Origin: Opitutaceae bacterium
GTDB taxonomy: Bacteria > Verrucomicrobiota > Verrucomicrobiia > Opitutales > Opitutaceae
Direction: 5' to 3'
NCBI GenBank assembly: GCA_016795545.1
Contig: JAEUGX010000066.1
Coordinates: 1-64,000 of the forward strand
DNA length: 64,000 nucleotides
The notes under the pieces were generated by a model that had not been told where the DNA came from, searched no databases, and was given only the letters and a program-made list of their open reading frames with translations. Positions within the stretch are counted from its first letter, which is position 1. The number at the start of each line of letters is the position of its first letter. Shown piece after piece: positions 58,429 through 64,000 of this stretch. The position numbers and the translations under genes are program-made.

Positions 58429-59175
58429 CTAGGACAGCAGCCCGCCGTCGACCACCCAGGTCGTGCCGGTCACGAACCGGGCCGCGTCCGACGCGAGGAA
58501 GGCCACGACCTCCGCCACGTCGGCCGGCTTGCCCTGGCCCAGCGGCGTCTGGTTGATGGTGTCGCCGCCCATGCCCCGGGCGCGCATCTGGCGCTCGAGC
58601 TCCTCCGAGGCGTCGGTGCGGATGTCGCCCGGCGCCACCGCGATCACGCGGATGCGGTCGGGCGCCAGCTCGCGGCCCATCGACTGCGTGAGGGAGCCCA
58701 CCGCCGCCTTGCCCGCGGCGTAGACCAGCGCGCCCTTCTGCGGGCGCAGGGCGTTGATCGAGGTGATGTTGACGATGGTCCCGCCGCCCGCGGCGCGAAG
58801 GTGCGGCACCGCGGACTGCGAGCAGAAGATGATGCCGCCGACGTTGACCGCCAGCATGCGCTGCACGTGCTCGGGCGTGGCCGTGGCCAGAGTCGACGAG
58901 GCGCCCATGCCGGAGAGCGCCGCGTTGTTGACGAGCGTGTCCACGCCGCCGAGCGCCTTCGCCGCCTCGTCCACGAAGCGCCGGCACTGCGCCGCGTCGC
59001 CGATGTCCACCGCCAGCGGGACCACCCGGTCGCCGTACTGCCGCACCAGGGGAGCGGCGACGGCCGGGTCCGGCTGTCCGACCGCGACCCGCGCGCCGCG
59101 GGCCAGGAAGGCCTCGGTGATGGCGCGCCCGATGTTGGTGGCTCCGCCGGTGACGATGATCCGGGTGGGTTGCAT
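58429..59175 (-). CDS. Short-chain dehydrogenase/reductase
   Basis: A 248-residue SDR. TGGATNIGRAITEAF near residue 10 is the NAD(P) loop, NNAALSGMG is the structural motif, Ser in NITSIN is catalytic and Tyr/Lys lie in VYAAGKAAVG near residue 150. A Gly-rich end DGGLLS closes the fold. Members oxidise sugar acids or secondary alcohols. First gene of the leftward operon with mutarotase-like, threonine-synthase-like and MFS genes. ATG 59175 fits the family start. The region upstream holds a dyad facing the divergent operon. Confidence 0.92.
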   Translation of the reverse strand: MQPTRIIVTGGATNIGRAITEAFLARGARVAVGQPDPAVAAPLVRQYGDRVVPLAVDIGDAAQCRRFVDEAAKALGGVDTLVNNAALSGMGASSTLATATPEHVQRMLAVNVGGIIFCSQSAVPHLRAAGGGTIVNITSINALRPQKGALVYAAGKAAVGSLTQSMGRELAPDRIRVIAVAPGDIRTDASEELERQMRARGMGGDTINQTPLGQGKPADVAEVVAFLASDAARFVTGTTWVVDGGLLS

Positions 59176-59260
59176 GATAGGTGGGTCAGGTGGCTGCGGC
59201 GGTCCCGGCCTGGGACCCCGCACGCTGGCATGGGTCCTGAGCCGGATTCAAACCCGATCA

Positions 59261-59353: not shown

Positions 59354-60082
59354 ATGCATTCCTCGCCCGTCCTGTTCGCGCCCGAGTTCCGAGCCAGCCG
59401 TCGCCGCCCCGGCGGAGACGAGTCCGCGCCGCTGGACTTGGCCGAGGTTTTTCCCGACTACCACGCGCAGGACCGGGTCGCGATCGTGGCCCCCACCTGG
59501 GAGGACAGCTTCCTCGCGAACGCGGCGGGGGTCTGCGCCCTGACCGCCCTTTTTTATGACGCGCAGCGCGCCACCAGGCGCCCGTTCTACACCTACCCGT
59601 CGCACTACCTGCTGCTCTGCCACGGCGCCGAGGGCCTGCCGACCCGGCAGGGCGTCCGCCCGCTGTCGCCGGAGAAGGCCGGCTACCCCTGGGGCAGCCT
59701 CGACGTGTGGCCCGAGACCCAGTGGCTCGCGGTGCCGCGCGACACCTCCGCGCTGCTGCGGACGATCTTCGCCCAGCACATCCACCGGCTCCTCTGGCCG
59801 GAGTCGCTGCCGATCGAATTTTCCGGCCCGCCGCTGCCCGGCTACATGCGCCTGATCATCGGCAGCCGGCTCAAGTCCGTGCACTACTACGACGCGGCGG
59901 AGCCCGACCTCCGGATCGAGGCCTCGGCGCGCGCCCACGCCATCCTCGACCACGCCCCGCGGCTGTTCGCCGGGGACTTCGCGCCGCCGCGCGAGAGCCG
60001 CTACCGGACGGTCGCGCCTGCCGACTTCATGGCGCGCGTGGCGGCGGGCTTCGGCCCGGCGCCGGCAGCGGCCGAGGACTGA
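59354..60082 (+). CDS. Uncharacterised protein before the regulator gene
   Basis: A 242-residue soluble protein. I do not recognise the family. PTWEDSFLANAAGVCALTALFYDAQ (in two parts) suggests a helix, and PFYTYPSHYLLLCHGAEG and MRLIIGSRLKSVHYYDAAEP are further ordered segments. It has no signal peptide. It is the first gene of a short operon, 14 nt before the GntR-type regulator gene and followed by HpaI aldolase, so it may act in the same sugar-acid pathway. Confidence 0.7.
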   Translation: MHSSPVLFAPEFRASRRRPGGDESAPLDLAEVFPDYHAQDRVAIVAPTWEDSFLANAAGVCALTALFYDAQRATRRPFYTYPSHYLLLCHGAEGLPTRQGVRPLSPEKAGYPWGSLDVWPETQWLAVPRDTSALLRTIFAQHIHRLLWPESLPIEFSGPPLPGYMRLIIGSRLKSVHYYDAAEPDLRIEASARAHAILDHAPRLFAGDFAPPRESRYRTVAPADFMARVAAGFGPAPAAAED

Positions 60083-60096
60083 TCCGCCGCGCCGCC

Positions 60097-61188
60097 ATGT
60101 CCGGCATCCCGCAGCGCCAGTATCTCTCGACCCAAGCCGCCGCGTACCTGCGCGAGGGTATCCTCCAGCGCACGTGGCGCGAGCACCTGCCGAGCGAGCG
60201 GCGGCTCTGCGAGCTGCTCCGCGTCAGCCGCCCGACCGTCCGCGCGGCGCTGCACCTCATCGCCAAGGAGGGCCTGATCGAGGTCAGCCAGGGGCGGCGC
60301 AACCGCATCATCACCGCCGGCGCCCGCCGGCAGCCCGCGGCGCCCCGGCGGCTGGTCGTCATCATCACCCACCTGCCGCTGACGGGATTGCGCACCGACA
60401 CGTACCACTCGGTCAGCGAGCTCCGCGCGCACCTGGCGACGCACGGCTTCGCCACCGAGTACCTCGTCTGCCAGGGGCGATCCGTCACCGAGCAGCGGCG
60501 CCAGCTCTCGACCTTCCTGCGCCAGAACCCGGTCTTCTGCTGCGTGCTGCTGTCCCTCCGCCGCGAGCTGCAGCAGTGGTTCGCCACCCAGTCCATCCCC
60601 GCCCTGGTCCTCGGCTCCTGCCCGCCGGAGATCCCGCTGCCCTCGCTCGACACGGACTACCGGGCCGCCGGGCGCCACGCCGCCGGCATCCTGCTGGGCA
60701 AGGGGCACCGCCGGCTCGCCGCGATCACCACCGACGTCAACGCCGGCGGCGACCTGACCAGCGAGGAGGGCTTCGTCGCGGGCGTCACCGAGGGCCCGCA
60801 CGCCCGCGAGGCCCGCGTCACCGTCCTGCGCCACGGCGGCCCCACCGCCCGCCTGTACAAGCAGCTCGACCAGCTCTTCGTGCCGGCCGACGCGCCCACC
60901 GCGGTGTTCGTGGTGCGCGAGGACCTGGCCTTCATCGTGCTCAACTACCTGCTGCAGCGGGGGCTGTCCGTGCCGGACAAGGTCTCGTTCATCTCGCGCG
61001 ATCCCAACCCGGTGTTCGCGCAGCTGCTTCCTCCCCTCGCCCACTACACGTTCGAGGCCGGCGCCTACAACCACCGCCTCAGCCGGCTCATGCTGCAGCT
61101 CGTCACCCACGGCTCCCTGCCCCCCGAGCCGAACCTCATCTTTCCCGACTTCTACCCCGGCGGCTCCGTGGCGAAGCGTGACGCCTGA
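60097..61188 (+). CDS. GntR-type regulator with LacI-like effector domain
   Basis: A 363-residue chimera: a GntR winged helix at residues 8-70 (LPSERRLCELLRVSRPTVRAAL in two blocks) followed by a LacI/periplasmic-binding-like sensor domain (about 85-355: RLVVIITHLPL, ALVLGSCPPEIPLPSLDTD, GRHAAGILLGKGHRRLAAITTD). The AraR type has the same arrangement. It probably senses a sugar ligand and controls both divergent operons. It overlaps no neighbour and the HpaI aldolase gene starts 97 nt downstream. Confidence 0.87.
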   Translation: MSGIPQRQYLSTQAAAYLREGILQRTWREHLPSERRLCELLRVSRPTVRAALHLIAKEGLIEVSQGRRNRIITAGARRQPAAPRRLVVIITHLPLTGLRTDTYHSVSELRAHLATHGFATEYLVCQGRSVTEQRRQLSTFLRQNPVFCCVLLSLRRELQQWFATQSIPALVLGSCPPEIPLPSLDTDYRAAGRHAAGILLGKGHRRLAAITTDVNAGGDLTSEEGFVAGVTEGPHAREARVTVLRHGGPTARLYKQLDQLFVPADAPTAVFVVREDLAFIVLNYLLQRGLSVPDKVSFISRDPNPVFAQLLPPLAHYTFEAGAYNHRLSRLMLQLVTHGSLPPEPNLIFPDFYPGGSVAKRDA

Positions 61189-61285
61189 GCCCGCCCCGCT
61201 TTGGCCAGCCGACCTTACCACCGCTCCGGTTTTGACTTCACCCCGGGCCGCCCCTGACTCCGCGTTCATCGCACCCTCAACCGCC

Positions 61286-62077
61286 ATGCTCGCCTCCTCT
61301 CTCAAAACCCGCCTCCGGAACAAGCTTTACACCGTCGGTCCGACGCTCACCTCCCACGCCTGGGCCGGCCAGATCGAGATCTTCCAAAAGGCCGGCATGC
61401 ATTTCGCCCTGCTCGACTTCGAGCACGGCTCGCACAGCCTGCCCATGGCGGAGGAATACTGCCGCATCGGGCGCCTGCTCGACTTTCCGATCATCATCCG
61501 CCCCGAGACGTCGCAGTATCACGTCATCCGCAAGTACATCGACATGGGGCCGGCCGGCCTGATGATCCCCTGGACCGAGCGGCCCGAGCAGCTCGAGGCG
61601 CTGCGCGACGGCGTCTTCACCCCGCCGCGGGGCCGCCGCGGCCCGGGCGGCCCGTCGATCGGGCACAACCGCTCCATCGACCGCGCGGGCTGGGACGAGA
61701 TCGAGAAGAATCTCTGCCTCATCGCCCAGATCGAGTCGCCCGCGGGCATCGCGGCGCTGCCAGGCCTCATCGACCACGACTGGCTCGATGCCACCATGCT
61801 CGGGCCCTACGACCTCGCGCTGAACATGGACCTCTGCTGGCAGCCGAACCACCCCGACCTGCTCGCCGCCATCCAGCGGGTCCACACGCAGTCGGCCAAG
61901 GTCGGCAAACCCTGCGGCACGGTCACGTACGACCGCGCCACCACCGAATACTGGGTCAAGCGCGGTTTCCACTTCTTCATCTACGGCGACCCCGCGGGCA
62001 TGATCGCCGCCGAATGCCGCCGGATGGTGCAGGAAGTGAAGGAGCTGAGCGAACTCCACGCCGCCGCGCTGAAGTGA
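61286..62077 (+). CDS. HpcH/HpaI family aldolase (second copy)
   Basis: A 263-residue class II aldolase. LLDFEHGSHSLPM near residue 33, AQIESPAGIAAL (metal Glu) near residue 152 and LGPYDLALNMDL (metal Asp) near residue 174 mark the active site. It probably cleaves a 2-oxo-3-deoxy sugar acid to pyruvate and an aldehyde, the usual end of bacterial hexuronate or rhamnose-type pathways. ATG 61286 is preferred because upstream in-frame codons overlap the regulator gene. The 3' end converges with the sialidase-like gene, 25 nt apart. Confidence 0.9.
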   Translation: MLASSLKTRLRNKLYTVGPTLTSHAWAGQIEIFQKAGMHFALLDFEHGSHSLPMAEEYCRIGRLLDFPIIIRPETSQYHVIRKYIDMGPAGLMIPWTERPEQLEALRDGVFTPPRGRRGPGGPSIGHNRSIDRAGWDEIEKNLCLIAQIESPAGIAALPGLIDHDWLDATMLGPYDLALNMDLCWQPNHPDLLAAIQRVHTQSAKVGKPCGTVTYDRATTEYWVKRGFHFFIYGDPAGMIAAECRRMVQEVKELSELHAAALK

Positions 62078-62102: not shown

Positions 62103-64000
62103 CTACTTCACGTCCGCCAGGCCGTCGCGGAACTCGACCTCGCTGACCAGCCGGCCCGCCGGATCCCACCGGCGCGCGGTCCCGTGCGCGTGGAGCCGCC
62201 GCCAGGACGACTGCGCCTTCGGCTTCCCGTCGGGCCAGTACTGGGTCCAGGTGCTGACGCCGCCGGGCTGGTGGTCGCGTTCCCAGACCTTCCCGCCGCC
62301 GGGGGCGTAGAGGACCTCGCGGCCCGTCTTTTCCCCGCGCGTGAAGCTGGCCTCGTACTGGAGCATGCCGTCGGGGTAGTACCACCGCTCGGGGCCGTGC
62401 TGCAGGTAGCGGCCGTCGTCGCCCACGCCCGCGGACCAGCGCAGGCGCACCTGGCCGCCCGGGTGGCGCTCCGTGTGCTCCTCGACCGCGTCGACCCGGT
62501 GCGCGGAGTTGGCCATCAGCGCGGCATCGTCTTCCGGCCACTGCCCGTCCGACAGCAGCCAGGCCTCGTTGAACGTCAGGTGCAGGCACGGCCGGTTCAT
62601 GGTGGTGACGAGATGGATCAGGTCGTCGGCGCCCTGGCGCAGCACGGAGTAGCCGACCGTGAACATGTCGCGGGTCTCGTGCTTCTGCACCCCGATGAGC
62701 GGCTTCAGCCGCCAAGTGCGGCCGTCGTCCTCGGAGATGCCCACCGTGCAGCCCGGCCGGTCGCGCCACTCCGCCGGACTCGGCTCGACGGAGTTGCGGT
62801 TGTCCGTCACGAAGATCAGCCGGCCGCTGCGCAGGCGCAGCAGGCTGCTGCGCTGGTTGCTGCCGCCCCAGCTGAACGGGGTCTTCTCCCGGGTGAAGCT
62901 GCGCGCGCCGTCGCGCGAGATCGAGGCGGTCATGTAGTGGTCGATCTGGTCCTTGCGGCCGTTCAGGCCGATAATCGACCGGCCGTCGGAGAGGAGCGCG
63001 AAGGTCGTGTGGCCGCCGTGTGCGCGCCCGCGCCGGTCCTGCCACGTCCGCAGGTCGTCCGCACTGGTCCAGAGGATCGAGTCGGAGTTCGCGCCGTCGA
63101 CCGCGACGTAGACGACGCCGTCGCGGTCGCGGAACGCCGTGTTGATCGGCTGCGCGTCGCTGGCGCCGAACGGGGTCGTGAACCGCGGGTACCGCACCGG
63201 CCCCCAAGTGGCGCCGCTGTCCTCGGTCGTCACCCACTGGAAGGGCGGGCGACCGGGCAACTTCGGAAGGCCCCAGAACAGGTGCGTCCGCCCGCCGTCG
63301 GTCCAGAGCAGCGGCGCATGGTCGTTGGCGCCGGGCACGTCGAAGCCGAAATCGGGCATCTCCCACTCCTCGCGGCCCAGCCGCAGCCGGGTGGCCAGCA
63401 GGCCGACCTCGGGGTTGTACTCCGTCCAGCAGGTGTAGGCGACGAACAGCAGGTCGCCGTTCGGCAGCACCTCGAGCGCTCCGCTGTGCTGGTGTCCGCC
63501 CAGGCCGGGGTGCAGCCCGAGCGCCGTCATGCGCCGCTGGTGCGAGGCATCCTCGTACACGTTGCCCTCCCAGGATTCCGGCGGCGTGGGCACGAGGTGG
63601 CGCTTGCGGAAGTACGGCCGCGCCGGATCCGGCCGGTAGCGGGCCGCCGCCGCCGTCGTCGACTGCCGCACGCCGGTCGCAAAATACCTCGTCTCCGCCG
63701 GATACGGCGGCGTCGGCACCGGCGGTGCCTGCACCACACGGAAGCTTAGGTTCGCCTCGACCAGGGGCAGCCCGTAGGCGGGCGGCAGTCCGGCGCGGTT
63801 CGCGGGCCGGTTGTAGCCGATCGGCAGGATCACCCGGTCGTCCACGTCCAGCTTGTCGCCGCGCAGCACGCGCACGAGGCCCCGGTCCGGGCCCGTGGGA
63901 TCCGTCTGGTCCTCCGGGCGGTATTCCCCGTACCAATCCTGGCACCATTCCACCACGTCGTCGAGCATGCCCGCCAGCCGGCCGCCGTCGGCCGCGCCCT
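62103..64000 (-). CDS. FGE-like/sialidase/MORN three-part protein (N-terminus beyond window)
   Basis: The frame is open to base 64000, so the N-terminus is missing. The visible start, DVVEWCQDWYGEY, then DPTGPDRG, RVLRGD and NLSFRVVQAP, is the C-terminal part of a formylglycine-generating-enzyme (FGE)-sulfatase-type domain. A sialidase-like six-bladed propeller follows with Asp boxes TEDSGATW, SRDGARSF and SEDDGRTW. The last 120 residues are MORN-like repeats (WYYPDGMLQYEA, YWPDGKPKAQ, WDPAGRLVSE). No similar architecture is recalled. It probably acts outside the cell on glycans, but which part is active is unknown. Confidence 0.8.
   Translation of the reverse strand, partial: GAADGGRLAGMLDDVVEWCQDWYGEYRPEDQTDPTGPDRGLVRVLRGDKLDVDDRVILPIGYNRPANRAGLPPAYGLPLVEANLSFRVVQAPPVPTPPYPAETRYFATGVRQSTTAAAARYRPDPARPYFRKRHLVPTPPESWEGNVYEDASHQRRMTALGLHPGLGGHQHSGALEVLPNGDLLFVAYTCWTEYNPEVGLLATRLRLGREEWEMPDFGFDVPGANDHAPLLWTDGGRTHLFWGLPKLPGRPPFQWVTTEDSGATWGPVRYPRFTTPFGASDAQPINTAFRDRDGVVYVAVDGANSDSILWTSADDLRTWQDRRGRAHGGHTTFALLSDGRSIIGLNGRKDQIDHYMTASISRDGARSFTREKTPFSWGGSNQRSSLLRLRSGRLIFVTDNRNSVEPSPAEWRDRPGCTVGISEDDGRTWRLKPLIGVQKHETRDMFTVGYSVLRQGADDLIHLVTTMNRPCLHLTFNEAWLLSDGQWPEDDAALMANSAHRVDAVEEHTERHPGGQVRLRWSAGVGDDGRYLQHGPERWYYPDGMLQYEASFTRGEKTGREVLYAPGGGKVWERDHQPGGVSTWTQYWPDGKPKAQSSWRRLHAHGTARRWDPAGRLVSEVEFRDGLADVK

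Follow-up and report, generated by a model that had tools for sequence, protein, structure and literature searches.

A bacterial protein family joining a catalytically dead FGE-like domain, a sialidase-fold propeller and a MORN-like tail, with a possible role in keto-deoxy acid release

Gene and domain organization

The analysed window, which spans positions 1 to 64,000 of the 82-kb contig C25 in a 3.55-Mb draft genome, ends within a minus-strand gene that encodes an FGE-like domain, a propeller and a MORN-like tail (Table 1). As the sequence-only reading had noted, the upstream end of the gene lies outside the window: the frame continues without a stop to contig position 64382 (ATG start) or 64427 (GTG start). 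The full protein has 759 residues from the ATG and 774 residues from the GTG, a possible further-upstream start. The N-terminus of the ATG form, MTSCSWRLLVAAIGLGGAAVGGAA, resembles a signal peptide. The window holds the C-terminal part of the FGE-like domain, the complete propeller and the tail, and no more of the gene; the N-terminal half of the FGE-like domain and the signal peptide lie beyond its edge.

In the full protein, Pfam matches follow the order FGE-sulfatase (PF03781; 92.5 bits, 4.6e-26), BNR_2 (40.1 bits, 3.6e-10) and MORN_2 (PF07661; 38.4 bits versus a cut-off of 29.6, 7e-10), and the first two also exceed their curated cut-offs. FGE-superfamily equivalogs of NCBIfam matched the family protein weakly, far below their cut-offs. 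The motifs from which an FGE-type domain had been read (EWCQDWYGEY, RVLRGD and FRVV) are all present, and the extended upstream part is FGE-like. Neither a stop nor an assembly error lies between the domains, which confirms the direct fusion that had been claimed. The propeller is likewise borne out by the BNR_2 match and by a GH33-type fold in the AlphaFold2 model. Three Asp boxes had been counted in it; two are good, while two others (SADDLRTW and SISRDGARSF) are degenerate. The MORN-like repeats hold in part, as MORN_2 exceeds its threshold in a single stretch and the remaining tail is a weaker beta-hairpin repeat. The AlphaFold2 model of the full protein, obtained from a 57-sequence alignment, has a pLDDT of 91.8 and a pTM of 0.92, and the FGE-like domain, propeller and tail are therefore predicted to form one rigid unit.

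A TonB receptor, an Amidohydro_2 protein and an SGNH/GDSL esterase are encoded upstream on the same strand, and apparently form one operon. GntR/LacI-type regulators with sugar-binding domains and a DUF4432 protein also map near the window copy. A 242-residue open reading frame with no Pfam match (window 59354-60082, plus strand) adjoins the GntR-type regulator.

Table 1 Features of the window gene and its neighbours (window coordinates)
Feature	Position	Strand	Basis or remark
In-window part of the FGE-propeller-MORN gene	62103..64000	-	Full gene C25:62103-64382 (ATG) or 62103-64427 (GTG)
C-terminal part of FGE-like (pseudo-FGE) domain, residues to ~234	63726..64000	-	PF03781; fold Z 20-22
Six-bladed GH33-type sialidase-fold propeller, residues ~268-629	62541..63626	-	BNR_2; structure match to 1eur
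His314, invariant 83/83	63486..63488	-	Aligns to sialidase triad Arg68 (profile-to-1eur)
Glu336, invariant 83/83	63420..63422	-	Near sialidase acid/base Asp92, within two residues; placement inferred
Asp box TTEDSGATW	63204..63230	-	Sequence
His473, invariant 83/83	63009..63011	-	At sialidase Glu260 (nucleophile partner) position
Asp box ISEDDGRTW	62712..62738	-	Sequence
Tyr593 (GYS), invariant 83/83	62649..62651	-	Candidate counterpart of nucleophile Tyr370, by motif
MORN_2-like beta-hairpin tail	62118..62495	-	Pfam MORN_2; ~10 predicted strands, high pLDDT
HpcH/HpaI-type aldolase, convergent neighbour, 2-keto-3-deoxy-acid aldolase class	61178..62077	+	Pfam HpcH_HpaI, 2.8e-20
GntR/Peripla_BP_3 sugar-responsive regulator	60124..61188	+	Pfam
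SDR dehydrogenase, same catabolic island	58429..59181	-	Pfam

Family distribution and architecture

The same genome encodes two further full-length copies, P0002 (contig C1) and P0003 (contig C71), with 62% and 46% identity, respectively. Searches with the propeller and tail alone, leaving out the FGE part, identified relatives in 80 loci, mostly from metagenome-assembled genomes. They represent at least 10 phyla, and are found in Verrucomicrobiota, Planctomycetota, Acidobacteriota, Armatimonadota, Hydrogenedentota, Lentisphaerota, KSB1, Sumerlaeota, Ignavibacteriota, Bacteroidota and Bacillota.

Nearly all complete relatives among the 80 have the same architecture. Among 57 long relatives, picked by length and hence biased towards FGE carriers, Pfam detected FGE in 57, BNR_2 in 54, MORN_2 in 44 and PA14 in 14. 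The FGE core is present in about 70 of all 83 aligned rows. Among the others, four (L035, L085, L087 and L102) are cut by contig ends and one (L083) starts short. Eight rows (L099, L103, L106-L109, L111 and L112) are FGE-less and constitute a single clade (support 100/100), in which propeller and tail are kept and an unrelated N-terminus of about 75 residues replaces the FGE domain. The PA14 domain interrupts the FGE domain between its core and its last strand, as seen in the alignment of L048, L037, L043 and others. One member of 1125 residues (L050:6141-9515) carries an extra 300 residues or so, N-terminal to FGE, that read like a second sialidase-like propeller. The window copy forms a long branch in the family tree, the bootstrap of which had not settled.

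An assembly or frame artefact, or chance, is excluded by the three independent genome copies and the 57 long relatives, and the proteins are confirmed as a real, widespread bacterial family. The sequence-only reading knew of no such arrangement. The arrangement is in fact conserved across phyla, although a search of open-licence papers found no description of the fusion or of the pathway considered below.

The FGE-like domain

When modelled alone (pLDDT 91.5), the FGE part matches PvdO and TvpA equally well (Z 22.1), human FGE with a Z of 20.4 (181 residues, 2.8 A) and phage Mtd with a Z of 10.6. The catalytic cysteine pair of FGE (C336 and C341 in the human enzyme; CHxSYC) is missing from the family, as C(4x)C follows RG(G) in none of the 83 rows. 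In the alignment with P0004, a canonical FGE of the source genome, the true-FGE cysteine region reads GGSYLCHASYCNRYR, and the family features RG(G/D).LD... and no cysteines at this place. The P0004 gene, which encodes the CHASYC pair, maps about 20 kb from P0003 on C71 (L119:195-1211, minus strand), and its product is likely the genuine sulfatase activator of the genome.

The absence of the cysteine pair in all members and the true FGE elsewhere in the genome rule out a working FGE. As the catalytic residues are gone and the fold is common to the non-catalytic binders TvpA and Mtd, the domain is best read as a catalytically dead accessory module with a C-type-lectin fold, for binding or scaffolding. 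It is not strictly needed for the role of the propeller, since the FGE-less clade keeps both this propeller and the invariant residues in it. If the proteins were named automatically after their N-terminal FGE domain, the label would be wrong.

The propeller and its rewired sialidase site

The propeller (model residues 253-614) matches 1eur with a Z of 32.5 and an rmsd of 2.7 over 314 residues (VIA-align, AlphaFold2 model), and Z values of about 30-32 were obtained for GH33 sialidases and KDNases (1eur, NanI, Neu2 and the A. fumigatus KDNase). We take the sialidase site to consist of the carboxylate-binding triad Arg68, Arg276 and Arg342, the acid/base Asp92, the nucleophile Tyr370 and its partner Glu260. 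In the profile-to-1eur alignment, the Arg68 equivalent, the residue preceding IP in the RIP motif, falls on His314. Arg276 is replaced by Lys/Arg491 and the Arg342 region is variable and not conserved among the 83 sequences; the triad is not retained in the family. The Tyr/Glu nucleophile pair of GH33 is not retained either, as the Glu260 position is taken by His473, within one residue in the 1eur alignment and exactly in the 4j9t alignment. Tyr593 is probably the counterpart of Tyr370, the match being one of GYS motif only, as no profile alignment, including that of a C-terminal-half profile, reached this residue. A canonical sialidase is ruled out by the changes in the triad and the replacement of Glu260.

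Eleven polar residues are invariant in all 83 sequences (H314, E336, R347, Q426, D444, H473, Q525, Y593, Q598, H616 and E621). Invariance of more than 10 polar residues across phyla speaks for an enzyme with altered substrate or chemistry, not a plain binder. A hydrophobic N-terminal stretch, scored by hydropathy and not by a signal-peptide predictor, is absent in every Bacillota member checked and present in nearly all others. This pattern would fit a protein that is exported in Gram-negatives but, in Gram-positives, acts in the cytosol on oligosaccharide taken up by the cell.

Genomic context of the family

Gene neighbourhoods were surveyed in the 80 loci (about 1.1 Mb), in which genes were called by longest open reading frame and phmmer at 1e-8, uncurated. 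Many loci are cut by contig ends, and all counts are lower bounds; many Bacillota loci, moreover, are close relatives and not independent. At least 19 loci contain an Fe-ADH, 17 a DUF1537 kinase, 15 a PdxA, 15 an SSF-type Na+ symporter, 14 a DHDPS-type aldolase, 17 a sulfatase and 12 a BT_1020-like propeller. Two or more of Fe-ADH, DUF1537, PdxA and DHDPS occur in 18 of the 80. The number of loci with DUF1537 is far above expectation, because in a sample of 79 genomes of the phylum only 2 carry this family (4 genes in total). The DUF1537/PdxA context, in which Fe-ADH, DUF1537 kinase and PdxA are found with the DHDPS-type aldolase and/or the SSF symporter, recurs in well separated branches, namely Bacillota, L037/L039, L063, L090 and the FGE-less clade.

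Around P0003 on C71 of the source genome, a single strand encodes an SSF symporter, a sulfatase, Fe-ADH, DHDPS, PdxA, a LamG protein and DUF1537. The only PdxA gene found in the assembly and one of its two DUF1537 genes are located about 9-14 kb from P0003. The LamG-domain protein, of 822 residues (L119:8780-11248, minus strand), is encoded inside this cluster. In 12 loci, a sulfatase gene follows directly on the same strand; 10 of them belong to the P0003 clade, the other two being L063 and L074. Sulfatases with CxPxR-type motifs are encoded next to the family gene in both the P0003 and P0002 regions, and BT_1020-like propellers also flank P0002. The DUF1537/PdxA gene set is absent from the neighbours of the window copy itself, whose substrate may differ from that of its relatives. 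Given the long branch and the different neighbour set, the substrate is least certain for this copy.

Discussion

Architecture, predicted folds, loss of the FGE catalytic residues, the rewired sialidase site and gene context were all computed. They lead us to favour, tentatively, a carbohydrate-active enzyme that belongs to the GH33 sialidase clan and is exported, with the active site in the propeller, the dead FGE-like domain as accessory and the MORN-like tail as a structural part. Such an enzyme, probably forming a new glycosidase subfamily within the clan, would most likely release a 2-keto-3-deoxy (ulosonic or ulosaric) acid, the best candidate being Dha (3-deoxy-lyxo-heptulosaric acid). 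The suggestion of a surface glycan enzyme, made from the sequence alone, is favoured by the export-type N-terminus, the GH33 fold and the glycan-catabolic neighbourhood.

The substrate proposal comes from the neighbouring genes. Aldolases of the DHDPS class cleave 2-keto-3-deoxy acids to give pyruvate plus an aldehyde. C4 aldonates are the substrates of DUF1537 kinases and PdxA-type dehydrogenases in four-carbon acid sugar metabolism (PMC10580937), in which a route from threonate to DHAP has been described (PMC12540250). If an aldolase and a reductase are to feed a C4 aldonate, a C7 keto-deoxy aldaric acid is the expected parent compound. Dha, the C7 keto-deoxy aldaric acid of chain D of rhamnogalacturonan II (RG-II), where it is capped by beta-Araf (PMC12282258, PMC12168206), fits the required form exactly, which on stoichiometric grounds suggests it as the substrate.

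Hydrolase activity, a nucleophilic role of Tyr593, the substrate and the sequence of the pathway steps are inferred, as follows. The propeller would cleave Dha from RG-II-like glycans, with the FGE-like domain binding or scaffolding and the MORN-like tail playing a structural part. The released acid would be taken up by the SSF symporter and split by the DHDPS-type aldolase into pyruvate and a C4 aldehyde acid, which the Fe-ADH would reduce to the C4 aldonate. The DUF1537 kinase would act next, and the PdxA-type dehydrogenase would, in the last step, yield DHAP and CO2. Taken in its most specific form, as a new, His-rewired, dead-FGE family of sialidase-clan glycosidases for Dha-like C7 keto-deoxy aldaric acids, combined with a complete and so far undescribed SSF/aldolase/Fe-ADH/DUF1537/PdxA route to DHAP, spread from gut Lachnospiraceae to Verrucomicrobiota, the proposal is unlikely to hold in all its parts.

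Several findings count against this reading: the sulfatase gene that directly follows in the P0003 clade, the loss of most of the arginine triad that grips the carboxylate in sialidases, and the long branch and other neighbours of the window copy. RG-II is not, to our knowledge, known to be sulfated. It is quite possible that the propeller is a polysaccharide-degrading enzyme for another substrate, such as a sulfated or uronic sugar, working as a lyase, lactonase or hydrolase via the conserved His, Glu and Tyr, and that the C4-acid genes serve another product of the same glycan. Non-conservation of both the triad and Glu260 would agree with this, as would the co-directional sulfatases and, at the window copy, the HpcH/HpaI aldolase, SGNH esterase and TonB receptor. 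Profile searches also returned a weak, non-significant echo of L-rhamnose-alpha-1,4-D-glucuronate lyase (E ~0.4). What speaks against another substrate is that the C4-acid gene set recurs in unrelated clades and comes with an aldolase of the DHDPS class, which acts on ulosonic acids.

That the whole protein merely binds or senses glycans, with a dead FGE, an inactive propeller and a MORN scaffold, is improbable. The lost FGE cysteine, the best fold match shared with the variable binder TvpA and the changed catalytic residues of the sialidase site would suit such a role, but the polar residues that are strictly invariant across at least 10 phyla, and the co-occurrence with soluble catabolic enzymes, cytosolic in Bacillota, favour catalysis. 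A sulfatase-activating enzyme fused to its client-binding domain, an idea prompted by the CxPxR-type sulfatases next to P0003 and P0002, is very unlikely and contradicted by the sequence; the cysteine motif is found in 0 of 83 rows, a canonical CHASYC FGE is encoded elsewhere in the genome and a sulfatase is a neighbour in only 17 of the 80 loci.

If release of a keto-deoxy acid, and of Dha in particular, is true of the family, an architecture common to at least 10 phyla gains its first function, the sialidase fold works without the arginine triad, and the missing fate of Dha, among the rarest of plant cell-wall sugars, is accounted for in gut and environmental bacteria.

Comparison with known systems

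With the FGE/PvdO/EgtB/SenA superfamily (PF03781), the family shares the fold and the motifs RLPTEAEWEYA and EWC.DWY...DP.GP...RG. It differs in lacking the catalytic cysteine pair, in the loops deleted in the window clade and in the PA14 domains inserted in other members. Treponema TvpA and phage Mtd likewise use an FGE-fold domain for binding without catalysis; in the family, this domain is joined to a propeller.

GH33 sialidases and KDNases have in common with the family the six-bladed propeller, the Asp boxes, the fold and an invariant GYS tyrosine at that end of the domain where it is expected. In contrast, the family features His, Lys/Arg and His in place of Arg68, Arg276 and Glu260, respectively, does not conserve Arg342, and adds an FGE domain in front of the propeller and a MORN-like tail behind it.

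The N-terminal propellers of BT_1020-like proteins (PF24067, which we take to be the GH143 Dha hydrolase) are also sialidase-like and co-occur with the family, as counted above, yet they constitute a separate Pfam family without FGE or MORN parts; PF24067 did not match any of the three members of the source genome at E<=1. BT_1020 itself is part of the RG-II apparatus, a further point in favour of Dha, and its N-terminal propeller was reportedly identified as a Dha hydrolase by Ndeh et al. in 2017. BT_1020 is a beta-L-arabinofuranosidase of GH142 (PMC7263609), and GH142 and GH143 co-occur with other RG-II families (PMC7922503).

Four-carbon acid sugar catabolism employs the same kinase (DUF1537) and dehydrogenase (PdxA) families that are encoded beside the family gene. 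Here, in contrast, they are joined to an aldolase, an Fe-ADH, a symporter and the propeller protein, additions which point to a longer keto-deoxy acid as the source of the C4 acid.
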